From Rhizobiaceae bacterium (GTDB lineage Bacteria > Pseudomonadota > Alphaproteobacteria > Rhizobiales > Rhizobiaceae), in contig JAESUH010000129.1 in NCBI GenBank assembly GCA_016763155.1, positions 1 through 34,183 on the forward strand: a stretch of DNA of 34,183 bases, written 5' to 3'. The translations under genes and the position numbers were made by a program. A model generated the notes under the pieces. That model had not been told where the DNA came from. It did not search any database and saw only the letters and a list, made by a program, of their open reading frames with translations. Within the stretch, counting starts at the first letter, position 1, and each line of letters starts with the position of its first letter. Of the stretch, positions 18,301 to 34,183 are shown piece after piece.

Positions 18301-18453
18301 GACAACTGCCAATGCAACAGCAAAGAACGCTGTCACCAACCCAGAGGAACCTAAAAGACGGCGCTTAAATTGTTTGTCAAATCCAATCTTCGTTTCGAGG
18401 CAAAGGCACACAAGATCGCTCGTAGTCAGATGCAAGAACATTACTGTCACCAT
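12319..18453 (-). CDS. Giant autotransporter adhesin 1 (type Va), 2044 residues
   Basis: This is a classical autotransporter: signal peptide, long beta-helical passenger, C-terminal outer-membrane barrel. The hydrophobic signal core is at about residues 33-57 (FKRRLLGSSGLVTAFFAVAL), preceded by an unusually long N-region. Residues 60-400 contain autotransporter-associated beta-strand repeats such as TKAGAGTLVLSGVNTYTGAT and SFSGVNTYTGDTTVSGN. Residues 500-1450 are Gly/Thr/Asn-rich beta-helix, including three tandem super-repeats (residues 716-1382). A Thr/Gly linker at about 1690-1708 is followed by VYEALPGVLQALNS and a barrel of about 280 residues ending in Phe (GTIGLKVSF), as expected for BAM-dependent insertion. 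A shared palindrome lies 273 bp upstream of the start. The likely role is surface attachment or aggregation; the ligand is unknown. Confidence 0.92.
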   Translation of the reverse strand: MVTVMFLHLTTSDLVCLCLETKIGFDKQFKRRLLGSSGLVTAFFAVALAVVPEKLSAQQVWDPNVGAGIQGGAGTWDAGTANWTADGGATNITYDAGPPAPTSEFGVAGGAVTVIGGQGIADLTFDVDGYQVSGAQLAIHDNGSTVTVTSGGDTAVISSVLSNLGPGTGALTKAGAGTLVLSGVNTYTGATSISAGTLQIGASERIADTSALIINGGTLNLNNFTESVSNFSGTSGNVSTGGVNGTLSVNQTVNGTYAGDFSGVSAISLPTLHKKGAATLTLSGTSSVTGNGNVRVEAGTLQVQNGNAIGDQQTVSGLAGILDLQDNETIGALVGNVNVNLNDNTLTIAGDSSPGISGWLHNGVISGAGNVIINNGDDVQSFSGVNTYTGDTTVSGNLLAGVTGALGSTTQGGVIVNGGQLGLNGRGHVKQSLLVTAGDILNGTIFVPGFFADQVGVSATIVPTGYVLTAVGGTINALSAGGVNASNATADGVLFIGSAITPAINNSTGTGIQIGNSVGGNILVTAGSGTGANITGLGGDGINIGSTGGGVIFLNGGNVANTIRGGSAAGQNGIEITADGSTEISVAGNIIGNAGVVFNSTAGAKIDVIGAGDITGSGDKGVVVNTVGTIGSVVVNRDGDILGATTGIDARSSNSGAGLGAVTVTAFAGRTITGTADAGVFTRTDKGLNSVKGAGNIIGKTYGINAKSLNGGTVLVTGSGTTSATGLSSTTISAVGSNNGTVSVNRTGLITNTGGGGAVGINASSYGTGNLFVTNTGGIDINDQNGIGIYAAHVSVSTANVTVKGTGAINNVGIGIIATSSTSGRIDIDSGAITLHAASQGFGIYGYTAGGTLTINNAGAIRGGLYGIFGIASGFGTIDVTLDADVIASPTLPSLGVHTSSSAGYTLIQGTGSAFGTESAIYATSFGGGNITVLGSGTTAASGNSSETIFAVSATGDGRVWVNRTGLITNTGTGSTIGINAATVGAGKLTITNAGGISIAGGSSLAINAIHGVVTNADIVINGAGAIVNTGTNGSGIYIDNVSRGLIDVDTGPITLNAVSTGTGISATSLDGTIRIDTAGAINGGRTGILANIIGSGTITVTLGADIGTMTAQSGAGIVTNSVNGTYTVKGSGNISATTFGIDAISRASTATGGNLMVIGTGTTSTSGNASYSIRARSAQLNGSVTVNRTGQVTNTGTGNTFGIYAATMGTGTTRVTNTGGVTIAGTDSVGISAIHTSTDLANVIVDGAGTIVSTGTAGSIGILATNESSGLVNVDTGSITMAAASTGAAIFARSTGAGNVTVDNAGTINGGGVGVFASSTGAGTVTVTTGAAIGGTNAPTAKGIQTSTVDGINTVSFGADVSSGGQGITATATGAGNIIISGVGNVAGGTDGISAISNSGTIAITTGGDVTGTAGAGIELGAGSIATVIIGTGHTVSGGTAAIRSAAATTNVTSNGTLNNNGSRGLIFDATAGNFSLISSGIATGLLQSAAGTTTNFTNVNGAEWTINGGTATMDGNDTVNNDGRLTVNGSATLNGVEVFNNTSVNSLIVNGIFNLGAAVFNNSGRINMQNGVAGDRLVIGGDYVATKGLLDIDTELGGDSSPTDLLTINNDTSGSTTLTVNNVGGTGAATVNGIEIIKVAGSSNGTFVLDGDHTTPSGAQAVVGGAFSYTLNKQPDGDWHLVSSMTNPTTGTGTSTTGTGTTTTPLYQPGSPVYEALPGVLQALNSGQSFFQRTSGHSLSSSEGSQDPNGVFTASSTFGSDGAAGQRGPFWGSIEGSFSQLAPSASTTGASFNVRTNLMQVGLDGLVYDAGTGQLFVGLNAQYGNANADTFSVFGDGAIKTTTYGLSLSATWIGESGLYVDGQARFNWFNSDITSDTLGTLVAGNDGTGQIWSIEAGKNHDLGDGWSATPQAQLSYSTISSDTFTGPFGEVISLGDNSSLTARTGMAFSYDDLGNSENGEQRQYYGIANLFRQFSDGTSAIVTGANLTSQSDDWSGEIGAGFNISWDERKYSIFGQATAATSLESFGDNNKYTGTIGLKVSF
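14308..16308 (-). repeat. Three tandem super-repeats of about 217-225 residues in autotransporter 1
   Basis: Three consecutive diverged units cover residues 716-932, 933-1157 and 1158-1382. Each begins with a GSGTT or GTGTT turn (VTGSGTTSATG, VLGSGTTAASG, VIGTGTTSTSG). Each continues with a VNRTG(L/Q)(I/V)TNTG strand, then a (F/T)(V/I)TN-GG(I/V) turn, then an I(D/N)VD(S/T)G-IT strand and a final AG-I-GG segment. The coding units are about 651-675 bp long. The identity is visible in protein but diverged in DNA, so the duplication is not recent. Confidence 0.8.
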
Positions 18454-18608
18454 CCGATCGCAGGCTGAATTTTTGGTGAAAATTCAGTAGCATACCCTCT
18501 AGAGCGCAACTCGCCTGCATAAACCAAGGGTTGTAAAAACATCGTTGTGGCAAACAAACCAACCAATAATGCGCCCAAAAACGCCTTCTTCAATAAACAA
18601 CGGTTCAA
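18447..18608 (-). CDS. Possible short secreted peptide overlapping the autotransporter 1 start
   Basis: An open frame upstream of autotransporter 1 could start at the TTG at 18608 (preceded by a GGGGA-like ribosome site) or further up at 18671. It encodes about 53 residues with a typical signal peptide: basic LNRCLLKK, hydrophobic AFLGALLVGLFATTMFLQPL, cleavage-like VYA-GEL, then a 22-residue remainder. Its TGA overlaps the autotransporter ATG as ATGGTGA, which would allow translational coupling. It could be a leader peptide, a small secreted protein, or a relic of an older autotransporter N-terminus. There is no homologue I recognise, so confidence is low. Confidence 0.35.
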   Translation of the reverse strand: MNRCLLKKAFLGALLVGLFATTMFLQPLVYAGELRSRGYATEFSPKIQPAIGW

Positions 18609-18661
18609 AACAATCCCCTGCCAAACTCTCGGCCATTCTGCACAAATTTTGTTAGCTGACA

Positions 18662-18677
18662 TCGAGTGCACATTCGA
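18662..18677. promoter_or_regulatory. Second palindrome, autotransporter 1 promoter
   Basis: TCGAGTGCACATTCGA is an imperfect 16-bp palindrome with one mismatched pair. It lies 48 bp from the gene-proximal edge of palindrome site A. The equivalent element upstream of adhesin 27103-29925 is a perfect palindrome at almost the same spacing, so it is a conserved promoter part. It would fall close to the transcription start predicted here, so it could be an operator or an RNA hairpin in the leader. Confidence 0.6.
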
Positions 18678-18685
18678 TCATCAGT

Positions 18686-18715
18686 TTCATATTAAGGAAT
18701 TTTTAACCTGTTCAA
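18686..18715 (-). promoter_or_regulatory. Candidate promoter of autotransporter 1
   Basis: In gene orientation TTGAAC (18715-18710) is followed after 18 bases by TATGAA (18691-18686), or after 17 bases by ATATGA. The intervening GTTAA-n-AATTCC is also present in the promoter of the 27103-29925 adhesin at the same distance from the shared palindrome. It is a visual prediction only. Confidence 0.45.
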
Positions 18716-18725
18716 TAATGTCTGT

Positions 18726-18747
18726 ATATGTATGGAATCATACATAT
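18726..18747. promoter_or_regulatory. Shared regulatory palindrome, site A (autotransporter 1)
   Basis: This is a 22-bp element with perfect 9-bp arms, ATATGTATG and CATACATAT, around the centre GAAT. Just outside, on the side away from the gene, is a conserved run reading AAAAAACTGC in gene orientation. The same block appears at sites B, C, E and in part at D. It lies about 10 bp upstream of the candidate -35 box, a good position for an activator. The likely binder is the response regulator at 32110-32748. Confidence 0.82.
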
Positions 18748-19071: not shown

Positions 19072-19626
19072 TTAGCCCAATTTCTCAACGGCAAGGGAAA
19101 AGCCGATTAGTGAGATTGGAATGATGATTTTTTTTCCATCCTGAGCCGAGATCATCAGTTTCATTTTCGCACCCTTTTGCATGGAGGCAAGCAAGGCATC
19201 GGAAATGAGGCTGCTGGCAAATATGCCCAATTGGTTGCTGGTAGTGAAGGCAAGAGAAACTGGCAGGTTCTCATCGACTTGCAGTTGCACCCCTGCTTTC
19301 AAATTAAGCCCGTGAGGCAATTGCAGAACTATTTGATGCGGTGCGGCCCCTATCGCTATTCGCGTGAATAGCTGGCCTGATTTTGCGACTTTGACAGTGT
19401 AAGATAATTCGCACAGCATTTTTCTGGCAATTGCATCAGGTTGACATTCGACGTTCCAATTGGAGGAAACGAATTGAGTTTTGTTGGGAGACCTTGGAGT
19501 AGAGGAACCCGGCGTTGTTGATAGCTTGGCAGGCGTGGTTTGAGCGTGAACATACGTGCCGCCAAGAGTTGACATCACAAGCACACAAATCACAGAAACA
19601 AGCTTCAAGGGGGCGTGAAATGACAT
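19072..19626 (-). CDS. Invasion-associated locus B (IalB) family protein
   Basis: The 184-residue protein resembles the IalB family, periplasmic or envelope proteins first linked to erythrocyte invasion in Bartonella and common across alphaproteobacteria. The signal peptide runs to about residue 28 (cleavage near YVHA-QT). The family core begins with NWNVECQPDAIARKMLCELS (Cys61 and Cys72). It continues through LFTRIAIG, IVLQLPHGLNLKAGVQLQVD and the later hydrophobic strand. The usual second Cys pair in the C-terminal half is not visible. An AAGGAAA ribosome site precedes the ATG. It lies 203 bp after the tail-collar genes on the same strand, beyond a stem-loop, so it may be transcribed separately. 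Function here is unknown. Confidence 0.8.
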   Translation of the reverse strand: MSFHAPLKLVSVICVLVMSTLGGTYVHAQTTPAKLSTTPGSSTPRSPNKTQFVSSNWNVECQPDAIARKMLCELSYTVKVAKSGQLFTRIAIGAAPHQIVLQLPHGLNLKAGVQLQVDENLPVSLAFTTSNQLGIFASSLISDALLASMQKGAKMKLMISAQDGKKIIIPISLIGFSLAVEKLG

Positions 19627-19829: not shown

Positions 19830-20384
19830 TCATTCAGAGGCGCCTTCCTCCCCCGTTGCTATCGGAATCGTTCCATACCACGAGATGATGTAATTCATGA
19901 CAAGATAAGGTTGAATATTAGCATGCGATTGATCGCCGCCAAAGGAGCCAAGAAGACTGCTGGCCATCGGCTCCAATGGCCCTTCCTTATCGTAGTAGAA
20001 CGGTATTTCTTTACCTGTCGAAAAAAGAGCGCTTGCCGGGTTAAAGGTATTGGCAATCGTATCTGGAGAACCGGGCACACATTGCAAATTATGCCGATGT
20101 CGTGCCATCTCAGATACTCGCAATGTTACATTCTCTTCTCCTCCCACTTCGCCTAGTTTTCGAGGAGTAAGACCTGCTCCCCTGCCGGGCCCCATTGGCG
20201 CGCGACCTGTTAAATTAGGTACGGCAAATGTCGAATACCCATTACCACCATATGTATAACCTATTACTTCAGACAACGCGTCATAGCCTGAAACTGGGTA
20301 TTCCATGCCATCGCATAACAACCAGCCAGCGGGGACGAATATGCTTGAAAGAATTCGAATTTCACCAATATACGAATCGTACAT
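19830..20384 (-). CDS. Tail-collar domain protein 3 (microcystin-dependent-protein-like)
   Basis: The 184-residue protein has the phage tail collar fold at residues 4-65. Key motifs are YIGEIRILSSIFVPAGWLLC, DGMEYPVSGYDALSEVIGYT and YGGNGYSTFAVPNLTGRAP. This is followed by a Gly-rich stretch, the HRHNLQ segment, and a shared C-terminal strand QPYLVMNYIISWYG. The domain trimerises at tips of phage tail fibres, but bacterial relatives outside phages are called microcystin-dependent proteins. AGGAGA precedes the ATG. No signal peptide is visible. It starts 9 bp after the end of the middle gene. It is the most diverged of the three, with the domain's usual LPDLRGR changed to VPNLTGR. Confidence 0.86.
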   Translation of the reverse strand: MYDSYIGEIRILSSIFVPAGWLLCDGMEYPVSGYDALSEVIGYTYGGNGYSTFAVPNLTGRAPMGPGRGAGLTPRKLGEVGGEENVTLRVSEMARHRHNLQCVPGSPDTIANTFNPASALFSTGKEIPFYYDKEGPLEPMASSLLGSFGGDQSHANIQPYLVMNYIISWYGTIPIATGEEGASE

Positions 20385-20393
20385 GTTGCTCTC

Positions 20394-20912
20394 CTAATTT
20401 TGGTGCGGAAGGACGCCACTTATGGCAATAATGAAATTGATGCAGGCAAATGGCATCACATTGGGATGGGGTTGCCCACCACCAGTATTGCTGATTGCTT
20501 CCGGATGCATATTTGTCCGGTCCGGAGAACCTTTAAAATACACCTCAAGTTCGGAAATAGTAATTGTGTTGCCAACAGGCTCCCCGGTTTCACTACCTTC
20601 TACCAATGCACTCATTTCATGTGAATGTGGTGGTAGTTCGTCGGCGTTTAAACTCACCTTCTCCTTACCACCATTTTCGCCGAGATTGTAATTGTTCAAA
20701 CCGGGGGCTTGCCCATTATGGATTGGAACCCGCCCTCTCATATCCGGAAGAGCAAAAGTAGTTAGACCATCACCTCCGTAGGCTATACCGATCACGCTGA
20801 AGAGCGCCTCGTTATGTTGAATACTCAATAAAGATCCATCGCAGATATGCCAATCGATAGGAAAGGTTACCCCTCCAAACATGCGTATTTCGCCGATATA
20901 AGGTTTAAACAT
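20394..20912 (-). CDS. Tail-collar domain protein 2 (microcystin-dependent-protein-like)
   Basis: This 172-residue protein is a second tail-collar homologue: YIGEIRMFGGVTFPIDWHIC, DGSLLSIQHNEALFSVIG, then YGGDGLTTFALPDMRGRVPI, and the typical LPPHSHEMS segment. The C-terminal strand FACINFIIAISGVLP matches the other two. Its start overlaps the end of the first gene by 8 bp, and a GGAGAC ribosome site precedes the ATG, so translation is probably coupled. No signal peptide is seen. No other phage structural gene is nearby, so this is more likely a cell-encoded set than part of a tailed phage. Confidence 0.88.
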   Translation of the reverse strand: MFKPYIGEIRMFGGVTFPIDWHICDGSLLSIQHNEALFSVIGIAYGGDGLTTFALPDMRGRVPIHNGQAPGLNNYNLGENGGKEKVSLNADELPPHSHEMSALVEGSETGEPVGNTITISELEVYFKGSPDRTNMHPEAISNTGGGQPHPNVMPFACINFIIAISGVLPHQN

Positions 20913-21456
20913 CTTTTGTCTCCATAGTGTTTTGACTATCGTCGTCTGCCTCGGGAAAAAGGCCGGTCACAGCAATGCAATAATTCAACGCGAGAAAAGG
21001 TTGCATGTTTTCATGCCCCTCCGCCTTTCCAGTATCCGAAAGTGCATTAGGCGCCATTGGAGCATTTGTGTCGTCAATAATGCGGTATGAGGGGAACACA
21101 TTGAGGCCAAGTACGTTGTTTTCAGGTATGCGGCTATTGGATTGAACACCCGATGCCAACACGTTGTGTTTATGGCTGGGCATTTCATCTACGTTCAGCC
21201 TGACCCGTTCATATCCGCCCTTGTCACCTTGTTTGAAATTATGGCCATTGACTTCGCCATGTTGCATTGGCAAACGGCCACGCAAGTCAGGAAGTGCAAA
21301 ATTAGTTTTTCCATCGCCACCGTATATCGTACCAATGACAGAAAATAGCGCCTTATTTTGATCGATTCTCAAAAGCGTTCCATCGCAACGGGCCCATCCG
21401 TCCGGAGCCCTACTGAACCCGAACGCCAATATTTCTCCGAGGTATTTATCAGCCAT
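20905..21456 (-). CDS. Tail-collar domain protein 1 (microcystin-dependent-protein-like)
   Basis: This 183-residue protein is the first of the three collar genes: YLGEILAFGFSRAPDGWARC, DGTLLRIDQNKALFSVIGTI, then YGGDGKTNFALPDLRGRLPM. It has the conserved EMPSHKHNV segment and the C-terminal strand FLALNYCIAVTGLFP. AAGGAA precedes the ATG. It starts 125 bp after the stop of the inverse autotransporter, with no strong terminator between, so all four genes may be on one transcript under site B. Three paralogues side by side suggest the proteins may assemble together, perhaps as a heterotrimer, since the collar fold is trimeric in phages; that is inference. Confidence 0.88.
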   Translation of the reverse strand: MADKYLGEILAFGFSRAPDGWARCDGTLLRIDQNKALFSVIGTIYGGDGKTNFALPDLRGRLPMQHGEVNGHNFKQGDKGGYERVRLNVDEMPSHKHNVLASGVQSNSRIPENNVLGLNVFPSYRIIDDTNAPMAPNALSDTGKAEGHENMQPFLALNYCIAVTGLFPEADDDSQNTMETKDV

Positions 21457-21581: not shown

Positions 21582-24500
21582 TCAGGGAGTTACACAGGTC
21601 CCGTCGGTGTAATTCACAATATTTCCTACTATTTGAGAGACATTTGCATTTGGTGTGCCAGTATCAGTGCCCTGCAGAAACGCTTCCACCGTTGCCGCGG
21701 CTGTAACGGTGCCGCCCAAGCCCTGAAGCGCGAAAGTTGCTCCCGTCCCCTGTGCTGAAAAATAGGTTGATGCCCCGACGCTGGTTCCAGTGTTATTGGA
21801 GAGGTTCGCGCACAGCCTTGCGGTTGATCCAGGAAGGCTCTTTCCTCCCCTCATGGCAATCGCAACCGGGAAAGTACCGCCAGTGATTGCGATCGTGTTG
21901 TTTTGTAGAGTTACATCGACATTGCTGGCTGCATAGCTGGCGATCTCTATACCGTAGGTAAATGGCGATGCACCAGCATTGGACTGAATGCTATTATTGT
22001 TTATTGCAACAATGCCGCGATAGCCGGTATTTGCTTCAATCAATATCCCATGCACTTCTTCAGTCGCTGATCCAATATTTGTATTATTCGCAATGGTGCC
22101 GGTGAAACTGCCAGTGCCTGTTGCATCCAGCCTTATGGCCGCATGGACTGTTCCGGATGGATGTGTCGCGGCGAGTGCGTTATTTCCGGTGATATTGAAC
22201 GTTCCGCTAGATGTGCCAGTCAATGTCATATCTATGGCTGCATCCTGAGCGCCACTGAGAGTGCTCCCGGTCAAAGTCAGGCCAAAATTGCCGCCATTGG
22301 CACCGTATACTGCGATCCCCTTGCCACGATTATCTGTCAGGGTTGAATTTCGAACAGTCAAATTGGCATTGGTTGCGTTGACCGTATTAACAAACAAAAT
22401 ACCGTGCTCGTCGCTAACACCGCCGGCATTTGTTATCTGACTATCGGTAATATTTAGGGTCGCAACACTCTGGGCAAAAATTCCGTGCTCGGCGCTACCA
22501 TTCAGGTTCATATTATTAATTGAAACATTTTGAACGGATTTGAGATCAAGCGCTGCATTACAACCTGAAAAATCAGTGGTGGTACAAGTACCCGCAGCAT
22601 CCACCGTATTGCCATTTGTCAAATTGAAATTGTTCAAGGTGATGTTACCGGCATTGGTAATTGAGATACCGCTATCGGTTGCGTTCTGTATTGTCCCGCC
22701 GGAACCAGCCGTAGTGCCAGTGCCGGTTATCGTAAATGCGCCGGTGCCGGTGTTGTTCAGGACAAGGCCATTAGCACCACCGTTGGAATTTACACTCCTG
22801 AAGGTCACGCCACTACCGCCAATTGCAGTGTTGGCGATCTGAACTGCTGTGCCTGTGGTCGAGGTAACTGTATTGTTGGTGCCGGTGGTGTTTACCGTGC
22901 CGCCGCCCGATACGTTAAATCCGACTGCCGAGGTTGTGGTGAGTGCAAGGCCGCCGGTGAAGGTGACGGTGCCGCCAGTATTATTGGTTAAATTAACCGC
23001 ATTTGTCGTCGTGGTGCTTGCGGTAACCAATCCACCAATGGTAACCGTGCCGCCGGTTTTGCTGGCAACAGCAATTGCATTAGCCGTATTGGTTTGATTG
23101 ATCGTGCCGTTATAGGTGACATTGCCGCCGGTGCTGGTATTGACATTAAAGGCTGTGCCGGTCGGATTGGTAATGCTGGTAGCACTGGCGAACGTAAATG
23201 TACCATTCGAGCCGCCAATAATATCGATGCCGGCATTACCACCATTAAGGGTTGTGGTGCCGTTGAAATTATAGGTGCCATCGGCATTGTTGAATTGCAG
23301 GCCATTGCCGTTCGTGGCGCTGATTGTGCCTGTCTGGAAGGTGATGGTGCCAGTATTATGGCCGCCATCAACATTAACCGCAGCGGCATTGTTGGTCTGG
23401 GTGATATTGCCCGCATAAGTCGCGGATACGGTACCTGCGTTAACATCGAACGCCGCCCCGCTGGTGCCGCTTATCGCACCGCCATTAATCACAATCGCCC
23501 CATCAACAGTGTCGAGTTTGATCCCGTTTGTGCCACCACTCGAATTAACGCTGGCGAAAACCATATTGATCGTCAGCGGATCAAGGTCCAGCGCCGTGCC
23601 GTTGGTTGTATCGACCGTAGCATTCGCTGCACCACCCGCATCAACATTCAAGGTAAAGCTGTTGGCTTTGGAATTTTGCACCAGCAGGCCGGTGTCGATA
23701 TCATTGGCGATATCCAGATCATCAAAGGACAAGGTGCCTTCCACATTCACCAGTCTCAGGCCACCGCCCCTTAGACGGGCAGCCGTGGTGCCAAGCAGCG
23801 TATTCCCGCCGGAGACAACCTGAATACCGGCGGTGGTCAGGTCATTATCAAACACTATGCCTTCCAGACTGATACCGGCTGAAGCACCAGCACTGGTATT
23901 AACGGTGTTGCTGGCAAATTGCTCGATGGTGATACGCCGTGCACCGGCAACGTCACCATCGACATACAGAGCGAGATTACCGTTGGCACTGAATGTATTG
24001 TTATTGATCCTGAGCCGCAGGTCTGAGGCTGCATTGTATGCAACTATGGCCACTCCGTAATTAGCGCTGGTATTTGAAAGCACATTATTTTCAAGAGTAA
24101 TCGTCGAGGCTCCGGCAGCGCCAGTATTATCGATGATCGTGATTGCTCTGGTATTGCCGATGATCAAGCTGTTTTGAATGGTAGCGTTTTGAATATCGGT
24201 TCCAATGATACCAATTCCGGAAGTGCCCGCGGTGATCACCACACCATCAATGATATTGTTATTGGCAAGCTGGATGACGTCGGAGCCACCACTGGAGGTC
24301 AATGTCGGAGCACCGAAGCCTGCATTAAGATCGGTGACCGTACCGTCAAAGCCGGTCAAGAACAGATTCACCTGAGACCCACCGATGGTAATCGTATCCG
24401 AATTGCGGAATGTCATCAGCCGCTGACTATCGGCCAGATCAAAGGTGTCGTTGCCGCCGGCATTACCTTGAATTGCGGAACTGGCGTCGATTGTATCTGA

Positions 24501-26984
24501 TGTACCGGCACCGGCTTGGCCATCAACCAATATTATGACATCGGCACCAGAGGCTTCAGCCTGCGCCAAGGTACCGGGGTCGGCCTGCGTGCCAGCGCCA
24601 ACACCGCCAGCATCGACAAAGAAGGTTGTAGCTGTCGACAGATTTGTGGTGTTGCCGGTCAATTGGGCATCACGCAAATTATAAGTTCCATTGCCAGCGC
24701 CCAAGCCAGCAATGGTGATTGGTGTTGACGCATCAACTTTAGAGGCTGTATCGGTCGTTCCCTCGCTATCTCCATAGATGAAGGTAGCGTGGGCATTATT
24801 GATCCGCACACCAATCGCCACGCCTGAAATTGAACTTGGCGCATCCGAACTCGAATTGGTTTGGGTGCCAATAATAATCGAGCGGTTATTTTTTGTCCCA
24901 TCAAGATCAATGCCAATGGAGCCTGCACCGCCCCTACCCGTGAGCGATAAACGGCTCATGGTAAAGCCGCCCTGAGGATCAGAACCATTGAAATCAAGGC
25001 CGGTGCGATTGCCTGCCAGATTAGTGATGGTCGTATCCCCAAAAGAGATGGCCCCGCCATTGGTGCCTTCGATATCAATCGCGGCATCACCTGCATTGTT
25101 GCCCGGATTGTCTATTTTTACAGTTTCAAAACTAACAGCCCCGCCGACGTCCTTGATCAAAATCCCATCGCCAGTATCTTTGAGCGTTGTGGTCCCCTTA
25201 AATGAAACGACCCCATTGCCGCCAGATATAGCAACGCCATTGCCGGTTGCCTTATCCACACTAAGCGCAGTGGTGGTGATCGTGCCACCGGGATTGGTGA
25301 AGGTGACGCCGTTATTGGTGACGTTCGAAATGCTGATATTTTTTAACGTTGTCGTGCCGGTATTATTGCCGATTGAAAGGCCGTTGAGCGCACCATCAAT
25401 GGTGATATCATTCAGTGTGGCTGATTCATTGTTCAGGAAAATAGCCGTGCCGCCAATATTGGAAAAGGCGGCATTGGAAATCATTGTGTCGGTAGCACCC
25501 ACAATGTGAATGCCGTCACCTGCGGTATTTTTTACCGTGATATTATTGAAATTTGCCCCGGTGATATTGTTACCACCAAAGCCAACATTTCCGCCCTGAA
25601 GTGTAATGTTTTCTATTCGAACATCGTTCGCAAGGCCAATGATTGTGGCGGTAGCATCAGTACCTTTGATGATACCGGGCGTAACACCAAGAGTATGATT
25701 TACAACGCCGGAGTTAAGACGAACCGGAACCTGCGAACCACCGCCGAGCAAATACTGCTTGGTTTGCAAGGTAACTCCGGCAGTAGTGATCACCCCATTT
25801 TTGCCTTCAGCAACAATGATGCCATTCGCCCCAGAGCGCGCCACAGCATCTTTCAAGGTTGTCGGATCTACTTCATTGCCAAGTCCAAGCGAATTTGATC
25901 CATCGGCAAAGAATATGAACCCAAACGGTTTACCCGTCCTGTCATCAATTGCCAGAGTTGAAACATCCGGCGCAGTGATCCGCTCCTCACGCGTCTGGAT
26001 GCGTGTAGTCCGGTAAATACGATTGTCTGCTCGCCGTTCAATCGTGCTGAGGTCGCCAACAGGGAAACGGGCATTACCGCCACCGGAAAACACATCAAAT
26101 GGAATTTGAAGTCTGGCTTCCGCAACATATTGCACATCGCGAACATCATCGTAAGTTACCTCGGCACCTATGATAAATTTGGCACCCTCTATCCCGAAAG
26201 CATCTCCAATTTGATATTCGAAACGTCCACGCGCGCCAGTAATATCCTCAACAGCATCAGCCCAATAATGATAGCCACCTGCAAACACCCTGAAATCATG
26301 TTTTTCCAACAGTCCGAAATCAATCTTCATGCCCACTTCAGCATCGGCGCCAAATAACGGCACTTCACTAATTTTTTCTCCACCGGCCACAGTTGTGGTC
26401 AGTTGATTATTCACGATACCCAAAACGGTGGTGCCAGACCCAGCAGTAAAGGTATCTGAAATTATTTTCTTGCCATTAATTGGTATATGGAAATTTACTC
26501 TGAAATCGTTATTGATCGTCAGCGCTTCTGCGCCAATGGTGATTGCGCGATGAATTTGATTGGTTTGTGTTCGGGTTACATCAAGAAAAGCATAACCGCC
26601 GAGCAAAAGGTCCGGGCCCAGAATTCTGCGCGCGCCAATCCCCCAATTGCCGAAATAATCATCCTCGTTGGCACCGTTCAATCGCCAATCCAGAAAAACC
26701 AGAGAATCGTCTGACTGGCTGATTGGAACAAATGCTTCAAATCCGGACGAACCGGAAAAAGAATCGGAGCGCACAATATACTCTGCATGTCCCTGCCATT
26801 TACCGGACGAAGCACCCGCAGCAGTACTCGTTTCGTCAGCAGATGCAATGCCAACGCACGCGAACGCAAGAACAGACAGCAAAGCTGCGGCCATTACTGA
26901 CCGCGCAAAAACACGCAAAATCAACAGCCAATACACTACATAACCCCACGAATATATATAATCTACCGATGAAACAATATTCAC
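21582..26984 (-). CDS. Inverse autotransporter with giant beta-helix passenger, 1800 residues
   Basis: The N-terminal half-kilobase looks like the beta-barrel of intimin/invasin-type inverse autotransporters (type Ve). Residues about 58-300 contain FEAFVPISQSDDSLVFLDWR, GNWGIGARRIL, LLLGGYAFLDV and RAITIGAEAL, and end with a long amphipathic strand set. The passenger follows the barrel, from about residue 343 to the C-terminus at 1800, as right-handed parallel beta-helix. There are two header blocks: FIFFADGSN...DPTTLKDAVARSGANGIIV and FFVDAGG...DPGTLAQAEASGADVIILV (from about 788). No C-terminal barrel is present. The signal region is residues 20-49 (ending GIASA-DE). The start is taken as the GTG at 26984, but GTG at 26936 or ATG at 26894 are possible. 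Site B lies 36 bp upstream of the chosen start. Confidence 0.82.
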   Translation of the reverse strand: MNIVSSVDYIYSWGYVVYWLLILRVFARSVMAAALLSVLAFACVGIASADETSTAAGASSGKWQGHAEYIVRSDSFSGSSGFEAFVPISQSDDSLVFLDWRLNGANEDDYFGNWGIGARRILGPDLLLGGYAFLDVTRTQTNQIHRAITIGAEALTINNDFRVNFHIPINGKKIISDTFTAGSGTTVLGIVNNQLTTTVAGGEKISEVPLFGADAEVGMKIDFGLLEKHDFRVFAGGYHYWADAVEDITGARGRFEYQIGDAFGIEGAKFIIGAEVTYDDVRDVQYVAEARLQIPFDVFSGGGNARFPVGDLSTIERRADNRIYRTTRIQTREERITAPDVSTLAIDDRTGKPFGFIFFADGSNSLGLGNEVDPTTLKDAVARSGANGIIVAEGKNGVITTAGVTLQTKQYLLGGGSQVPVRLNSGVVNHTLGVTPGIIKGTDATATIIGLANDVRIENITLQGGNVGFGGNNITGANFNNITVKNTAGDGIHIVGATDTMISNAAFSNIGGTAIFLNNESATLNDITIDGALNGLSIGNNTGTTTLKNISISNVTNNGVTFTNPGGTITTTALSVDKATGNGVAISGGNGVVSFKGTTTLKDTGDGILIKDVGGAVSFETVKIDNPGNNAGDAAIDIEGTNGGAISFGDTTITNLAGNRTGLDFNGSDPQGGFTMSRLSLTGRGGAGSIGIDLDGTKNNRSIIIGTQTNSSSDAPSSISGVAIGVRINNAHATFIYGDSEGTTDTASKVDASTPITIAGLGAGNGTYNLRDAQLTGNTTNLSTATTFFVDAGGVGAGTQADPGTLAQAEASGADVIILVDGQAGAGTSDTIDASSAIQGNAGGNDTFDLADSQRLMTFRNSDTITIGGSQVNLFLTGFDGTVTDLNAGFGAPTLTSSGGSDVIQLANNNIIDGVVITAGTSGIGIIGTDIQNATIQNSLIIGNTRAITIIDNTGAAGASTITLENNVLSNTSANYGVAIVAYNAASDLRLRINNNTFSANGNLALYVDGDVAGARRITIEQFASNTVNTSAGASAGISLEGIVFDNDLTTAGIQVVSGGNTLLGTTAARLRGGGLRLVNVEGTLSFDDLDIANDIDTGLLVQNSKANSFTLNVDAGGAANATVDTTNGTALDLDPLTINMVFASVNSSGGTNGIKLDTVDGAIVINGGAISGTSGAAFDVNAGTVSATYAGNITQTNNAAAVNVDGGHNTGTITFQTGTISATNGNGLQFNNADGTYNFNGTTTLNGGNAGIDIIGGSNGTFTFASATSITNPTGTAFNVNTSTGGNVTYNGTINQTNTANAIAVASKTGGTVTIGGLVTASTTTTNAVNLTNNTGGTVTFTGGLALTTTSAVGFNVSGGGTVNTTGTNNTVTSTTGTAVQIANTAIGGSGVTFRSVNSNGGANGLVLNNTGTGAFTITGTGTTAGSGGTIQNATDSGISITNAGNITLNNFNLTNGNTVDAAGTCTTTDFSGCNAALDLKSVQNVSINNMNLNGSAEHGIFAQSVATLNITDSQITNAGGVSDEHGILFVNTVNATNANLTVRNSTLTDNRGKGIAVYGANGGNFGLTLTGSTLSGAQDAAIDMTLTGTSSGTFNITGNNALAATHPSGTVHAAIRLDATGTGSFTGTIANNTNIGSATEEVHGILIEANTGYRGIVAINNNSIQSNAGASPFTYGIEIASYAASNVDVTLQNNTIAITGGTFPVAIAMRGGKSLPGSTARLCANLSNNTGTSVGASTYFSAQGTGATFALQGLGGTVTAAATVEAFLQGTDTGTPNANVSQIVGNIVNYTDGTCVTP

Positions 26985-27020
26985 CTAGACCAAAATAATA
27001 ACGGCAGGAAATACATACGT

Positions 27021-27042
27021 ATATGTATGGAATCATACATAT
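27021..27042. promoter_or_regulatory. Shared regulatory palindrome, site B (inverse autotransporter)
   Basis: The 22 bases are identical to site A: perfect 9-bp arms with GAAT in the centre. The outer flank again reads AAAAAACTGC in gene orientation. The gene-side flank differs from A and C and lacks the second palindrome. It lies 36 bp upstream of the GTG used here; a downstream start at 26936 or 26894 would give room for a promoter and leader. Confidence 0.82.
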
Positions 27043-27102: not shown

Positions 27103-29925
27103 CTAATTCAGCGGAATAGTCAGTTTCACACTGCCGCCATAGGCGTCGTAGCTGGCAAGGCCAATTCCGTCGTAGAAGCCGCTGAAAGCAAGGCTCCAGC
27201 CGAGCAGATTGGTGACCGCAATGCCTGCATCCAGTTTGGCGCGTAGATCATCTGAACCAAGCACCGTGCCTTGGGTGAGAATGCCCTTTTTGATACCGAA
27301 GTTCTGCACGCCCGAGATGCCGAAACTTGGTTGCATCAGCGTGCCATCTTCAAGCTTGATATCGTAGCTGAAGCTCGGGCCGAAGCTGTATTCTCCTAAG
27401 GATACGGTTTGTTGCGGAATGATATTGCCGAGAGTATCCGTATAAGTCTCCTGATTTTCCTCAAACCACGATATTCCCGCCTGTGGTGCAATGGTCCATG
27501 CGCCTAGTTTGTAGCTGCCCGAGAGTTTGGCGCTGGCAAGAAAGCGCTCGGTTTCAAACTGATCGGTATAATTGCCATTTGGGTTTACATCATTCTCAGA
27601 ACGACCCCACGCCACGCGCGCTTCATAAGAGAGCTTAGTGCCGCTAATCCTGCCTGCAATATAAGGCCCGATCATCCAACCCATACCATCGACAGATGAG
27701 TTCGCCGTCCGGTTGGTTTCACTGGCCCAGTCCACCTGTACCAGTGCGCCGATAATCATATCGGGCGAGACAAAGTAGTGCGCGCCAAAATAGCCGACCC
27801 AGAGGTCACTATCAGCATTGCCTGCCCTTGCGGAGGAACCATGGACCTCTGTCCAGATGTCAAAATTATGAGCTTCCCCATAAGTTGATGAGGTACTGTC
27901 TACCGAAAGCGCATTTGGAAAGGCATTATCAATGCGCTTATCGGCCTTTGATTTTTGCTTCAACCGGCTGAGGCTGGAAGAAAAGGACAGGCGCAAATTC
28001 CCCTCATTGCCATCCACATCCAGATCACCCAAGGGCCCCCCACCACCAAGATTGGAGCCATTTAGCAGACCGCCAATATTGGGCTGGTTGCTCAATATGT
28101 GATAGGCGCGGTTATGCATGAAAGTGGCGATGACCTTTTGGGTATCTTCAATAATCGTATTCTTGACGATCACTTGTTCTGCAGCAGCATTGCCATTGCT
28201 GACGGCATCCACCGCAACATTCGCCGCCACATCGATGGTGACATCGCCTTTGCCTGATGGCGTGATGGTGGCGGTATAGGTATTGGCATCAGCAGCAACA
28301 AAGCCCGAAGCGGCACCATTGCCCACCGTGATATCAGCCTGCACAAAGCCGGTGACATCTTCCGAGAACTGTACCGTGATATTAAACGCGGTTAGGCCAT
28401 CGGTGGAGGTCGGGGCTGTGATCTCGACTGTTGGCGAAACATTATCCAGAATGGCGGTTTGACTATTTGCCGCCAGATTATCATTGCCCGCATCATCCTT
28501 GCCAGCACCAGCCTTTACCCCAATCACCACATCTCCACCTCCATTGGGTGTGATCAGCGCAGTGAACACCCGTTTCGCAGTTACGGTTTTAAAGGCCGAG
28601 GCTGTGGCATTGGTGAGGGCTGCATTGATATCAGCCAGATCAAAACCGTTAATCCCCTCATTGAAGGTGAAGGTCGCGGTAAACGGGGTTGTGCTATTGG
28701 TGATTGTCGGAACACCGGTAATGGCCACATTGGATTTGATCTCATCCGTATTCGTCACACGCACCGCGATATCCTGTACATCGGTTTGTGCACTGCCATC
28801 GGTCGCCGTTACCTGCACATCATAGACATTGTTGCCACCCACATCAGCCGGTGTTTCAAAATCAGGAGCGGCTGCAAAACTCAACGCGCCCGAATTGGTA
28901 TCAATATTAAACTTAGCCTGATCAGCACCGCCGCTGATTGAATAGGTAACTGCACCACCATCGCCCTGGGTAGTAGTAACCGTCGTCACAGCAGTCACAT
29001 TCTCCATCACAGTGATATTTGCCGTAGTATTTCCTCCATCAGATGTAATAATCGGGGCAACATCAGGCACGTTGGTAACCGTCACAGCAATATCCTGAAC
29101 ATCAACTAGCCCGCTACTATTTGTAACCGTCACCTGCACATCATAGACGTTGTTACCCCCCACATCAGTTGGGGTTTCAAAATCAGGTGCAGTAACAAAC
29201 GTCAGCACACCAGTATTGGCATCAATATTGAATTTGGCCTGATCAGCACCGCCTGTCTTTGCGTAGGTAAGCCCTGCACCTTCCGTGTCACCACCACCAT
29301 CCGTACTTTGCACATCGGTAACCGCAGTCTGATTCTCAGCCGCATTCACCGCAGCAGTAGCACCACCAGTGATAACAGGAGTAACCGCGGCAACTATGGT
29401 AAACGATTTAATCGTATCTGTGCCCGCATCCTTGCTGAATACAAAATTATAGGTATTACCTGCATAATCATATTGCATAATATGAGAAAATGCATTGGCT
29501 GTGGTTGCCGTAAAATCCACCGTGGAGGCGATTGGAGCCCCGTCGACGAATACGTTGGAAATCGTAGCCGCATGATAGTGAATGCGCAAACCATCAAATA
29601 CTGTAGGTGTACCATCATTATTGGTGTTTAAATCAACCGCAATTGGGGAACTGGAAGTCGTTGCGTTAAAACCATGGCCAAAGGTACCTATTATTACGCA
29701 AGTCAAAGATGTTCTAAGCACGACGCCGCTGTAAGCACCATCGTCGATATGCGTATCAGGCACAGCTGGACAAGTCACCCCCGCAGTAATAGCCAAACTG
29801 TTATCAACCACACCAAAGGTGCTTACAGAAAAGAACAACAGCCCCAATAACACGCTGAACCAGCGGTGCATCGTCCAATTCTCGATTACCCCACCAAAAA
29901 CCCTGCTAACACTTTTACCACTCAT
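27103..29925 (-). CDS. Autotransporter adhesin 2 with cadherin-like and Ig-like repeats, 940 residues
   Basis: I place the start at the ATG at 29925, because GGGGGTGG lies before it; the frame is open to 29973. Signal peptide: MHRWFSVLLGLLFFSVSTFG. In numbering from 29973, two cadherin-like repeats lie at about 203-300 and 306-408, each with DQAKFNID-N-G-L-F and VYDVQVT. Two bacterial Ig-like repeats follow at about 413-510 and 514-606 (FTATFTFNEGINGFDLADI, FNITVQFSEDVTGFVQADI). A linker leads to a C-terminal autotransporter barrel at 700-956, beginning FDIWTEVHGSSARAG. Such repeat stacks usually mediate cell-cell or surface adhesion, sometimes calcium-dependent. Site C lies upstream. The region near residues 60-200 is not recognised. 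Confidence 0.87.
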   Translation of the reverse strand: MSGKSVSRVFGGVIENWTMHRWFSVLLGLLFFSVSTFGVVDNSLAITAGVTCPAVPDTHIDDGAYSGVVLRTSLTCVIIGTFGHGFNATTSSSPIAVDLNTNNDGTPTVFDGLRIHYHAATISNVFVDGAPIASTVDFTATTANAFSHIMQYDYAGNTYNFVFSKDAGTDTIKSFTIVAAVTPVITGGATAAVNAAENQTAVTDVQSTDGGGDTEGAGLTYAKTGGADQAKFNIDANTGVLTFVTAPDFETPTDVGGNNVYDVQVTVTNSSGLVDVQDIAVTVTNVPDVAPIITSDGGNTTANITVMENVTAVTTVTTTQGDGGAVTYSISGGADQAKFNIDTNSGALSFAAAPDFETPADVGGNNVYDVQVTATDGSAQTDVQDIAVRVTNTDEIKSNVAITGVPTITNSTTPFTATFTFNEGINGFDLADINAALTNATASAFKTVTAKRVFTALITPNGGGDVVIGVKAGAGKDDAGNDNLAANSQTAILDNVSPTVEITAPTSTDGLTAFNITVQFSEDVTGFVQADITVGNGAASGFVAADANTYTATITPSGKGDVTIDVAANVAVDAVSNGNAAAEQVIVKNTIIEDTQKVIATFMHNRAYHILSNQPNIGGLLNGSNLGGGGPLGDLDVDGNEGNLRLSFSSSLSRLKQKSKADKRIDNAFPNALSVDSTSSTYGEAHNFDIWTEVHGSSARAGNADSDLWVGYFGAHYFVSPDMIIGALVQVDWASETNRTANSSVDGMGWMIGPYIAGRISGTKLSYEARVAWGRSENDVNPNGNYTDQFETERFLASAKLSGSYKLGAWTIAPQAGISWFEENQETYTDTLGNIIPQQTVSLGEYSFGPSFSYDIKLEDGTLMQPSFGISGVQNFGIKKGILTQGTVLGSDDLRAKLDAGIAVTNLLGWSLAFSGFYDGIGLASYDAYGGSVKLTIPLN

Positions 29926-29975: not shown

Positions 29976-29991
29976 TCGAATGTACATTCGA
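29976..29991. promoter_or_regulatory. Second palindrome, adhesin 2 promoter
   Basis: TCGAATGTACATTCGA is a perfect 16-bp palindrome, 49 bp from the gene-proximal edge of site C. The same element, with one mismatch, stands 48 bp from site A. Between the two palindromes the promoters share GTTAA-n-AATTCC and a TGAA box. It is probably an operator or leader hairpin common to the two classical autotransporters. Confidence 0.62.
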
Positions 29992-30040
29992 CCGTCAGGC
30001 ACTTTGTTAGGGAATTCTTAACTTATTCAGTAATTTACGT

Positions 30041-30062
30041 ATATGTATGGAATCATACATAC
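30041..30062. promoter_or_regulatory. Shared regulatory palindrome, site C (adhesin 2)
   Basis: The element is the same as sites A and B with one changed end base, leaving 8-bp perfect arms, TATGTATG and CATACATA. The outer flank in gene orientation is AAAAAAGTGC, one base different from A and B. It lies 115 bp upstream of the chosen ATG at 29925. Confidence 0.8.
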
Positions 30063-30307: not shown

Positions 30308-32113
30308 TCAATCAGGCAAAATCAGTTTTACTTGTGTACCACTGGCCGAACTGGTCACTTTGATCTGCGCACCGATTTGTTTTGCGCGGCGGTGCATGCC
30401 GATAATGCCATGATTGCCCTGCTCAGGCAAATTGGTCGGATCAAATCCAGAGCCATTGTCGCTGATCGTCACAGATGAAGCATTCGACGCGACGGTGATT
30501 ACACTGGCATTGGCATGTTTAATAATATTGGTAATGGCTTCTTGAACAATGCGGGCCAGATGCAGGTTTTGCGAAGGGCCAGATACCGGCAAAATGGGTT
30601 CCTCGCCTATTTGCCAATCGAACTCAAGACCATTGGCCTCCAGCAACGCCTCAAGCCGGGTGCGCAACATGCCAAGCAATGTGGTGATGCTATCCTGATT
30701 TTCTAAACTGTCGAGCATCAGGGCTAAATCTCGCAAGGCATCTTCAAGCGCTGAGCGTAATGTCTCATCGCCAACATTGCGGTTTTCCATATAGGCCAAT
30801 GTATTGACCAATTGCCCGCCAATTCCATCATGCAAATCAAGCATGATGCGTTGCCGCTCCTCATCAACTGCCTTGTGTTTTTCCGCTTCGGCAAGGTCTC
30901 GGTAACTTTTAGCGAGCTCTTTGGTTTTTTGCTCAATAATCTCATGTAGCGAGCCGGTCAGCGTTTCGAACTCCGAAAGACTTCGAATGAGCCGAGACAT
31001 GATCAGCCATAAACATACAATCGACATGGCAATCGGCATATATTGTAATATATGCAAACTTCGAGGAGGCTCGTTTAGCAGGTTCAGAATTTCTTCATAC
31101 AGGCCGATGGCCAATGAAACAGACAGCACCAGAAAGAAAATTGCAAAATCCCGGAGCGCCGACTTTTCTCTGTTCTGCCAAAAAACAATCAAGACGCCAA
31201 GAGCACAAATTGCTGTCCCGATATTTAGAACCAGCGTGAGCAAAAAGACGTACTTTGCAGGTGCAACTACCATGATCGCTGCAGAAACCACTATGAACCA
31301 CAGATAGAATTTTTCCAAAGGCAGTTTCGGCAACTCCAGGAATCTGTTGATGAATTTCATGATGAAAAACACATACAGGTAAATTGAAACTGCCCATGAC
31401 AGGGTCCAGTATTTATATGGAAAGTATGAGATATCATATCCATAATGTGCCAGAAAGATGCAAGCGCTGAAGCATGACAAGCTGAGCCATAAAAATATCG
31501 GGTCATCACGACGTGCCACCCAGACGCCTCCAATAACCACAAATAAAATGGCCATAAGGCCCAAACTAAACCGCGTGACACCAATACCGATTGATGTGCG
31601 GAAGTTTTTTACTGGCTCCAATGTCGACAGCGAGCCGACATAAAAAGGGAATATACTCACCCCCTGCTGTGGCGGCCCGGTAAGAACAATGTCTATCCGG
31701 TTTTGTCCGACACGCAGCAAATTATTTGATATTTGAGATAATATGGGATGGTTCCACATTCGCCCGCCCAGCCTGGGTCGTCTGATTTCGGTACCGTTTA
31801 AGGTAATAGCTATATTGTCAGATATTTTCGGTAAATATACGGCTTGGATCTGCTCAGGTGGCATTTCCATTTCAAACTGAAATTGCATATAGAGCTTCGT
31901 ATTGGCGGTCGCGTACCGCATAGGCACGAAATAAGGCAATGTGATTTTTGCACGTTGGACGCAATTGTGATCAGAACATAATTCGCCGCTGGTGATCAGT
32001 TTGCTGCCCTCGATCGGCGAAATTTGTCCAAAATTTGAGAAGTAAATCAGCGAAGTCAGGAACAGCACCCAGAGCGCCATTGCCACCATCGTGACACAGT
32101 TCTGCTTACTCAC
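30308..32113 (-). CDS. Sensor histidine kinase, NarL-partner type, with 7TM sensor region
   Basis: This 601-residue membrane kinase begins with one transmembrane helix (residues 10-28). A periplasmic domain of about 145 residues follows, beta-rich with RVGQNRIDIVLTGPPQQG near its end. Then come about seven membrane helices (residues 175-375), resembling 7TM sensors with an extracellular ligand module. A coiled coil (390-420) leads to the HisKA_3 dimerisation box ERQRIMLDLHDGIGGQLV with phosphorylated His428. An HATPase domain contains the N-box IVQEAITNIIKHANAS and G-box DNGSGFD. The start is a GTG that overlaps the regulator's TGA by 4 bp (GTGA). The pair is surely co-translated. The ligand is unknown; the periplasmic part could sense carbohydrate or envelope state, which is a guess. 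Confidence 0.92.
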   Translation of the reverse strand: MSKQNCVTMVAMALWVLFLTSLIYFSNFGQISPIEGSKLITSGELCSDHNCVQRAKITLPYFVPMRYATANTKLYMQFQFEMEMPPEQIQAVYLPKISDNIAITLNGTEIRRPRLGGRMWNHPILSQISNNLLRVGQNRIDIVLTGPPQQGVSIFPFYVGSLSTLEPVKNFRTSIGIGVTRFSLGLMAILFVVIGGVWVARRDDPIFLWLSLSCFSACIFLAHYGYDISYFPYKYWTLSWAVSIYLYVFFIMKFINRFLELPKLPLEKFYLWFIVVSAAIMVVAPAKYVFLLTLVLNIGTAICALGVLIVFWQNREKSALRDFAIFFLVLSVSLAIGLYEEILNLLNEPPRSLHILQYMPIAMSIVCLWLIMSRLIRSLSEFETLTGSLHEIIEQKTKELAKSYRDLAEAEKHKAVDEERQRIMLDLHDGIGGQLVNTLAYMENRNVGDETLRSALEDALRDLALMLDSLENQDSITTLLGMLRTRLEALLEANGLEFDWQIGEEPILPVSGPSQNLHLARIVQEAITNIIKHANASVITVASNASSVTISDNGSGFDPTNLPEQGNHGIIGMHRRAKQIGAQIKVTSSASGTQVKLILPD

Positions 32114-32748
32114 AGCAGTCCCATCTTCGTCGCCTGCACTACGGCCTGAATGTTCGAACCAACATTCAATTTCCGGTAAATGCTATTGATGTGATTGCCC
32201 ACTGTCCCCGTAGATATATCAAGCTGGAGGCCAATCTCTCTTCGTTTATAACCTTGGGCAACGGCACGCAGAATTTCAATTTCCCTGCCTGTGAGTTCAA
32301 ACTCTGGAGCAGTTTCAGAAACAGCCTGACGCTTTACCATGGTTAGCAGATGTCGCGCGATGGACGGACTGATCGGGCTGCCCCCATCGATCACGGCCAG
32401 AATATCATCGCACACGCTGGTCAGTCCGCCGCTTTTTAGAACATACCCTTTTGCACCTGCCTGAATGGCTTCAATGACCCGGGCCTCATCCCCAAAAATA
32501 CTGATCACCAGCGCATCACAATCCCAATCTGCTTGGGCCACAGCACGGATAACATCAACGCCCGATCCATCCGGCAGACCGAGATCGATCAGAACCACTC
32601 GTGGTTGCAGATCGCCGAGCAATTCCAGCCCCTGGCTCACCGTGCTTGCAGAACCAACCACCTCCAAATCGTCATGCTTGGTAACGGCATCCCTTATCCG
32701 CGCAGCAATTTCTGCACGGTCTTCGATGATCAGTATTGGGTGTGGCAT
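32110..32748 (-). CDS. NarL/LuxR-family response regulator
   Basis: This 212-residue regulator has a receiver domain: acidic pair in ILIIEDRAE, phosphorylated Asp55 in VVLIDLGLPDGSG, and conserved Lys in GYVLKSGG. A LuxR-type helix-turn-helix follows: FELTGREIEILRAVAQGYKR, then REIGLQLDISTGTVGNHI and the usual NSIYRKLNVGS. I choose the ATG at 32748 because the receiver then starts normally (MPHPILIIED); the GTG at 32796 would leave only 12 bp to palindrome site D. LuxR-type regulators bind as dimers to inverted repeats, which suits the five palindromes in this region. Site D in its own promoter predicts autoregulation. Confidence 0.93.
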   Translation of the reverse strand: MPHPILIIEDRAEIAARIRDAVTKHDDLEVVGSASTVSQGLELLGDLQPRVVLIDLGLPDGSGVDVIRAVAQADWDCDALVISIFGDEARVIEAIQAGAKGYVLKSGGLTSVCDDILAVIDGGSPISPSIARHLLTMVKRQAVSETAPEFELTGREIEILRAVAQGYKRREIGLQLDISTGTVGNHINSIYRKLNVGSNIQAVVQATKMGLL

Positions 32749-32808
32749 GGTGCAGATCACGCTTAAATTTTGAATATAACTTGATATAGCACCCACAAGT
32801 TCCAGTGT

Positions 32809-32830
32809 ATATGTATGGATTCATACATGA
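32809..32830. promoter_or_regulatory. Shared regulatory palindrome, site D (two-component operon)
   Basis: The element keeps the core ATGTATG-N4-CATACAT (32811-32828), with centre GATT in place of GAAT. The A-run and CTGC flank seen at the other sites are absent. It stands 60 bp upstream of the response regulator start, fitting feedback control. Confidence 0.75.
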
Positions 32831-32914: not shown

Positions 32915-32936
32915 ATATGTATGATTCCAAACATAT
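32915..32936. promoter_or_regulatory. Shared regulatory palindrome, site E (exoprotein pseudogene)
   Basis: This copy lies on the other strand relative to A-C, with one mismatch in the second arm (CAAACATAT for CATACATAT). The upstream flank reads AAAAAACTGC followed by ACC. In the orientation of the plus-strand exoprotein gene it is arranged exactly as sites A-C are to their genes. It lies about 130 bp upstream of that gene's likely start. Confidence 0.8.
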
Positions 32937-33067: not shown

Positions 33068-33696
33068 TTGAGTAGTTTTATACCAAAACAACTTTTTTGC
33101 GCGTTCTTGGGTAATTTGTTAGCCACAACTACGCTTTCGCATTCGTTTGTTTACACCGGAAATTTGCCTTCCGGGGGACAGGTTTTCTGTCGGTAATAAT
33201 CACTCGGTGAATTTCCAGAATGGTTCGGGGGCAATGCAGAACCGGGTGACGGGGAATAATATCTCCACCATCAATGGTCGTCTGACAGCCACCGGGTCTG
33301 TATTCCTGATCAATCGTAATGGGGTAATTATAGGCAAGAACGGGGTGATCGAGACCGGCGGCAGTATCCCCGCGCCGAATGGCACGGCGGCATTGATTAC
33401 CGAGCGTGAAGATTGGGGATGCCAATTCTTCAATCACCGAACAGGGCATGATTGCTGCAGCCAAGGTGGAGTTGCGGACCAATGGGGGCAATATCTACGT
33501 TTTAGCTGGCAATAAGGGTGGCTCAAACAACGCCATCGGCGTGACCAAATCCGGTGGACACATCTTCCTGACCGCTCCAGGTGGACGGGTAATAGTACGC
33601 AAGCAGGTTCGCGCCCGGCGCAGGATTTTTCGCAATTCAAGACCTCGCATTGATGGGGGCGATATCTTCGTCAATGCCAATATCGTAAATATCTAA
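33068..33696 (+). pseudogene. Two-partner-secretion exoprotein (filamentous haemagglutinin-like), broken and truncated
   Basis: Three frames together give the N-terminus of a TpsA exoprotein. First, from the TTG at 33068 after GGGGG, comes a signal peptide (FIPKQLFCAFLGNLLATTTL) and the start of the mature protein, YTGNLPSGGQV. After a frameshift near 33180, with about 25 residues lost, the TPS secretion domain follows: FSVGNNHSVNFQNGSGAMQN, RVTGNNISTINGRL, GSVFLINRNGVIIGKNGVIE. A second frameshift near 33405 leads to EQGMIAAAKVELRTNGGNIY, VLAGNKGG, GGHIFLTAPGGRV, ending GGDIFVNANIVNI. Intact relatives are usually far longer. No TpsB transporter is in the window. Site E upstream shows it once shared the regulon. 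Confidence 0.82.
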
Positions 33697-34116
33697 TGAC
33701 TCCGATGCGCTTTGCCATGTATAGAAGGCCCCGATTGCCCAATTGTTAATTTGAGTTAACTGCGATTTTTGTAGGTTACGGTCATGTGCCTGGCCTTTTT
33801 GCATCTCCAGAGAAGTGAAACCTTGATCCAGCCATGAATAGTGGTAGCACAGGGTCCATCTACAGGTGCTTGATCTGGCTCTAGCTAACCTCGGAATTTG
33901 ATCGCACCTCATATTGCGTTAACGTCTTCCACGATATGACTCCAAGCCAATGGCTGCTTCCTGGAAGTTGACCCGTGGCATTCGCGTTTACCTGAACGGT
34001 TACTTTGGGCCGTTAGTGCCGAGAAACCGGTGCATGCCCAAGTCACCTGCAAACATTGTATCTACGGATGGGATTGCCACACACCACTTCAATTTTTATG
34101 GCAGCTAATTCGACCG
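33697..34116. other. Gene-free stretch after the exoprotein remnant
   Basis: About 420 bp show many stops in all frames. A 91-codon minus-strand frame (33637-33912) overlaps the pseudogene and resembles nothing I can name. The abrupt end of the exoprotein gene and scrambled sequence suggest a deletion or insertion-sequence relic, but no transposase motif is clear. Confidence 0.35.
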
Positions 34117-34183
34117 CTATTTCCGAGCAATACGCTTGGCAAGTTCTGCTGAAACTTCATCCGCTGCCTGTTGGACCGGATCA
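34117..34183 (-). CDS. Possible C-terminal end of an unknown gene (partial)
   Basis: The minus frame from the right window edge reads about 21 residues ending AADEVSAELAKRIARK and a TAG stop. It looks like a helical, charged protein C-terminus but is too short to identify. It may be chance. Confidence 0.25.
   Translation of the reverse strand, partial: DPVQQAADEVSAELAKRIARK

Follow-up and report, generated by a model that had tools for sequence, protein, structure and literature searches.

The window, by which we mean the whole 34,183-nucleotide stretch of DNA analyzed here, carries two autotransporter genes whose promoters share two palindromes. The question that this locus raises is whether the second of these (Pal2) is a regulatory element in its own right, part of the "two layers of control" suggested by the first-pass annotation, or whether it was carried along with the promoter that holds it. 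The first palindrome (Pal1) was taken as the 18-bp ATGTATG-n4-CATACAT. The autotransporter genes and the two copies of Pal2 are the following.

12319-18453, minus strand: PATR/AC_1 beta-helix autotransporter with a TIGR01414 barrel
21582-26984, minus strand: inverse-autotransporter-like protein, 1800 amino acids, with Pal1 only; class as given by the first-pass annotation
27103-29925, minus strand: cadherin/Big_12 autotransporter; 50 bp separate Pal2 from the likely ATG at 29925-29923
18662-18677, minus strand: Pal2 in the leader of the beta-helix autotransporter, gene strand TCGAATGTGCACTCGA; predicted +17 to +32
29976-29991, minus strand: Pal2 in the leader of the cadherin/Ig-like autotransporter, a perfect 16-bp palindrome TCGAATGTACATTCGA; predicted +18 to +33 from the placement of the -10 element

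Both copies of Pal2 lie where they had been reported, and they are the only matches to the pattern with 0 mismatches in the 3.99-Mb genome. The copy at 18662-18677, which reads TCGAGTGCACATTCGA, is identical to the other at 14 of 16 positions and keeps six of the eight pairs. Apart from the copy at 29976, the 34-kb window holds no perfect 16-bp palindrome (0.52 expected); for a promoter of ~300 bp, the chance expectation is ~0.005 by post hoc arithmetic. A degenerate search allowing three mismatches returned no more matches than chance, so that the significance of Pal2 lies in the exact matches and their position. With only two exact copies, we rejected the idea that Pal2 is a mobile-element end or a genome-wide repeat. 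A literature search with the core AATGTACATT returned nothing relevant.

The cadherin and beta-helix promoters align by BLASTN with 79% identity over 101 bp (E = 1.6e-17), and a weaker similarity runs past Pal2 as far as the ribosome-binding site and the start codon. The homologous block comprises an A-run, Pal1, the -10 region and Pal2 and continues into the leader, upstream of passengers that are unrelated, as the first-pass annotation had stated: the full proteins give no BLASTP match to one another, and their barrels share at most a weak 51-residue stretch. Two details of the earlier description change. With an 18-bp Pal1, the interval between the palindromes is 50 bp in the beta-helix promoter (18678-18727) and 51 bp in the cadherin promoter (29992-30042), the reported 48-49 bp requiring a Pal1 two bases longer, and the alignment, described as free of gaps, takes one 1-nt gap ~10-15 bp before Pal2. 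BLASTN found no comparable third copy of the promoter in this genome or in 394 others of the family (395 in total). Homologous signal peptides were rejected as the cause of the shared DNA, the leader peptides scoring no better than shuffles.

These comparisons support the view that the two promoters are duplicates and that it was the promoter that was copied. Of the earlier suggestion that the promoter had been copied or kept by selection independently of the protein, the copying is upheld by the homologous block before unrelated passengers; selection on Pal2 is not, since shared descent through promoter copying suffices to explain its presence in both leaders. Between Pal2 and the beta-helix autotransporter we also observe a short open reading frame (18447-18671, minus strand) with a signal-peptide-like sequence (NRCLLKKAFLGALLVGLFATTMFLQPLVYAG...). 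Its end overlaps the first ATG of the autotransporter, which has a signal peptide of its own, and it may encode a small secreted peptide in its own right or be what is left of a gene that has been replaced.

Pal1 has a wider distribution. Five sites with at most one mismatch occur in the 3.99-Mb genome, all of them inside the window, and they precede three autotransporter-type genes, a gene with a TPS domain, and an operon encoding a 7TMR-DISM kinase and a NarL-type regulator.

18728-18745, minus strand: Pal1, beta-helix autotransporter promoter, with GANTC in its center
27023-27040, minus strand: Pal1, inverse autotransporter promoter, with GANTC in its center and without Pal2
30043-30060, minus strand: Pal1 (ATGTATGATTCCATACAT), cadherin autotransporter promoter; the center holds GATTC (GANTC)
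32811-32828, minus strand: Pal1 (ATGTATGAATCCATACAT), response-regulator/kinase operon promoter, a probable autoregulatory site
32917-32934, plus strand: Pal1 with one mismatch (ATGTATGATTCCAAACAT), upstream of the divergent TPS-type gene
30308-32113, minus strand: 7TMR-DISM histidine kinase, cognate partner of the regulator, with a 4-bp overlap with the regulator gene
32110-32796, minus strand: NarL/GerE-type response regulator, the proposed binder of Pal1

The inverse autotransporter, whose 1800-residue product matches no Pfam or NCBIfam family, carries the first palindrome alone, in agreement with the first-pass annotation; Pal1 extends beyond the three autotransporter promoters to the sites at 32811 and 32917, both located between the regulator operon and the divergent TPS-type gene. 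The latter, read rightward from the 32917 region, matches PF05860 (E = 2e-16). The gene for this TPS/filamentous-haemagglutinin N-terminal domain (33069-34183, plus strand) is split among several reading frames ahead of the contig end. Upstream of Pal1 at 18728, 27023, 30043 and 32917, an A-run is followed by CTGC or GTGC and two to three C; this feature, a possible UP element or second contact, is present at four of four surface-protein promoters and absent from the regulator promoter. Three consecutive phage-tail-collar-domain proteins (172-184 residues, PF07484) are encoded at 19830-21456, between the autotransporter genes, and adjoin an IalB-family gene (19072-19626).

The regulator and kinase, whose domains are PF00196, PF00072, PF02518 and PF07695, adjoin the Pal1 sites, and a scan of GTDB contigs identified orthologues of the regulator with 60-61% identity in a Roseicyclus sp. 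MAG (L069) and in Rhodobacteraceae bacterium XHP0102 (L070). Both have ATATATGGAAACATACAT ~70 bp upstream of the regulator start. The sole second such site in XHP0102, ATATATGGAAACATATAT, lies ~130 bp before a gene for a 926-residue autotransporter with a PF03797 beta-domain (E = 2.9e-38). In a third genome, G390 (L092), the regulator is 62% and the kinase 47% identical to those of the window; no Pal1 directly precedes the regulator there, and the single best site genome-wide, GTGTATGATTCCATACAT, instead precedes the neighboring gene, which encodes a 199-residue signal-peptide-bearing protein of no Pfam family. More distant homologues of the regulator (35-41% identity) lack Pal1 in the surrounding DNA, and the recognition helix TVGNHIN with the preceding GYKRREI occurs only in the regulators of the four Pal1 genomes and not in these homologues. 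At the regulon promoters of the four genomes, Pal1 keeps its 4-bp spacer, which the search pattern had fixed. Among 40 relatives, Pal1 with at most one mismatch was found in none except this genome itself, and exact Pal1 was absent from the GTDB and viral contigs searched. Given the five sites in the window and those in three orthologue genomes before a regulator, autotransporter or secreted protein, the neighboring GerE-type regulator very probably uses Pal1 as its operator.

The position of Pal2 relative to transcription depends on where the core promoter is placed. At an offset of 32 nt from the Pal1 center, the window promoters contain the -10-like hexamers TAAAAA, TAAGAA, TATTAT and TATATC, three of which are assigned as follows.

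30015-30020, minus strand: predicted -10 element TAAGAA, cadherin autotransporter promoter, 32 nt from the Pal1 center
18700-18705, minus strand: predicted -10 element TAAAAA, beta-helix autotransporter promoter, 32 nt from the Pal1 center
26995-27000, minus strand: predicted -10 element TATTAT, inverse autotransporter promoter, 32 nt from the Pal1 center

The G390 promoter, read from its sequence, has TAAATT at the same offset and the TPS-type promoter has AATAAA at an offset of 33, while -10 elements in the regulator promoters of Roseicyclus and XHP0102 are unconvincing. An offset of 32 would correspond to the spacing of a class II activator centered near -42/-43. A plain sigma-70 scan found no standard promoter, which is what one would expect if the promoters depend on an activator, though the start stays a prediction. 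With transcription predicted to begin near 30008 and 18693, Pal2 would fall at approximately +17 to +33, inside the transcribed leader, and thus apparently downstream of the start rather than in a classical promoter position.

Taken together, these observations lead us to a reading to which we assign a probability of about 0.6. Both autotransporter genes would stand behind copies of one ancestral promoter-plus-leader cassette. The NarL/GerE-type regulator would bind Pal1 as a dimer centered at about -42 to -43 and activate transcription as a class II activator, acting likewise on its own operon, the inverse autotransporter and the TPS-type gene. Pal2 would have been inherited with the cassette at ~+17 to +33 of the 5' leader; its most likely role, if it works at all, would be that of an operator bound by a second dimeric regulator and acting just after initiation, with a leader hairpin as the runner-up. 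We slightly prefer an operator to an inert sequence or a hairpin because a perfect 16-bp palindrome is unlikely to arise by chance at that place. Conservation in relatives, the check that the first-pass annotation had named for Pal2, went against it: XHP0102, Roseicyclus and G390 lack Pal2 at their Pal1 promoters, none of which is a known orthologue of these autotransporter promoters, and two related genomes searched in full held nothing better than two mismatches. Of the two layers of control, the first, Pal1 and its regulator, thus has comparative support; the second, Pal2, lacks such support and is possible. Among the genomes examined, Pal2 is seen in this one alone, and a function for it is a proposal.

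The strongest competitor, which we hold to be a real possibility albeit short of an even chance, is that Pal2 is inert, a chance palindrome in the ancestral promoter that was carried along by duplication. The promoter homology extends well beyond Pal2, no Pal2 occurs at the window's three other Pal1 promoters (inverse autotransporter, regulator and TPS-type) or at those of the related genomes, and the beta-helix copy is imperfect, all of which speaks for this reading. The chance expectation of ~0.005 argues against it, as does the fact that Pal2 is somewhat better kept than its flanks, 14 of 16 positions against a background identity of ~60-70%, although this difference is borderline (P = 0.02-0.10).

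That Pal2 acts as RNA, by way of a 5'-proximal mRNA hairpin that would shield the transcript or tune its translation, seems unlikely to us. Both leaders do fold with a hairpin centered on Pal2 and an outer stem of CUGA.../...UCAG or UUGG, in which two changes preserve pairing (G-C to G-U and U-A to U-G); other changes break pairs (A-U to A.C). With z scores of 0.26 and -1.74, the full leaders fold weakly compared with shuffled sequences; nothing in Rfam scores above its cut-off, and the comparison comprises two sequences only. Also in keeping with an RNA role, an AUG in the Pal2 stem opens a frame of 21-22 codons that ends on the start codon of the autotransporter or of the leader open reading frame, and in both leaders this upstream frame closes with a TGA that overlaps the next start. 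The changes between these frames nevertheless fall mostly at codon positions 1 and 2, the peptide is unconserved and the AUG has no good ribosome-binding site, and we rejected a peptide-coding upstream frame despite the common end point. Finally, it is very improbable that Pal2 is bound by the Pal1 regulator as well, for although Pal2 has the 7-2-7 arrangement of known NarL sites and a half-site ending in ATG like that of Pal1, the half-sites agree at only four of seven positions (ATGTATG versus TCGAATG) and the spacer is 2 bp instead of the 4 bp kept by the Pal1 sites of all four genomes, a length fixed in the search pattern.

Two further features of these promoters are leads for a second layer of control other than Pal2, namely a CtrA-type box over the predicted -10 element and GANTC in Pal1.

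18692-18706: CtrA-type full site TTAA-N7-TTAA over the predicted -10/+1 of the beta-helix promoter (motif definition, PMC6180460)
30007-30021: homologous CtrA-like box of the cadherin promoter, one mismatch (TTAA-N7-CTAA on the gene strand)

The shared string GTTAA-n-AATTCC noted by the first-pass annotation proves to be an exact TTAA-N7-TTAA in the beta-helix promoter. GANTC, the target of CcrM, lies at the center of five of five Pal1 sites of the window (18735, 27030, 30050, 32818 and 32923). In the window as a whole GANTC is depleted more than two-fold (48 observed versus about 112-133 expected), and the genome encodes a protein with a RAMA domain, which is carried by CcrM. GANTC is also present in Pal1 of G390 and missing from that of XHP0102 and Roseicyclus (G411/G412), so that a Pal1 site does not depend on it.

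In comparison with known systems, the arrangement most closely resembles that of the NarL/FixJ (GerE-type) class II activators, with an adjacent kinase, an inverted-repeat operator at ~-42 and a site in the regulator's own promoter. It differs in the operator: no description was found of ATGTATG-n4-CATACAT together with a surface-protein regulon, the site here being a predicted one, and our literature search found no paper on the combination of 7TMR-DISM, LuxR and autotransporter. The analysis links an apparently undescribed 7TMR-DISM/NarL-type two-component system of Rhodobacterales-like bacteria to a probable DNA site and a probable set of targets (autotransporters, inverse autotransporter, TPS-type protein and small secreted protein). 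A series of giant surface proteins thereby becomes a single regulon open to testing, and genes with unrelated passengers prove to have a promoter-leader cassette in common.

The CtrA full site of Alphaproteobacteria, TTAA(N7)TTAA, has been reported to overlap the -10 element where CtrA represses (PMC6180460). The likeness here consists in the exact box over the predicted -10 at 18692-18706 and in the presence of a CtrA gene of Rhodobacterales type (NF045991, over cut-off, 422 bits); the cadherin copy departs by one mismatch, the inverse autotransporter promoter has no such box, and candidates in promoters of the other genomes are unconvincing.

A further parallel concerns methylation. Expression of agn43 in Escherichia coli, an autotransporter gene, is subject to a Dam/OxyR methylation switch, and the window resembles it in having autotransporter promoters whose regulator site holds methyltransferase targets, GANTC in each Pal1. 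Here the target is of CcrM type instead of Dam, there is one per operator, and it is missing in two of three related genomes; phase variation is not indicated for the Pal1 promoters. It is a long shot that CcrM methylation of GANTC gates the regulator at Pal1, that CtrA covers the -10 element and that Pal2 adds a checkpoint after initiation, joining envelope sensing to the cell cycle. If true, this integration of methylation, CtrA and Pal2 would be the alphaproteobacterial counterpart of methylation-gated autotransporter expression.
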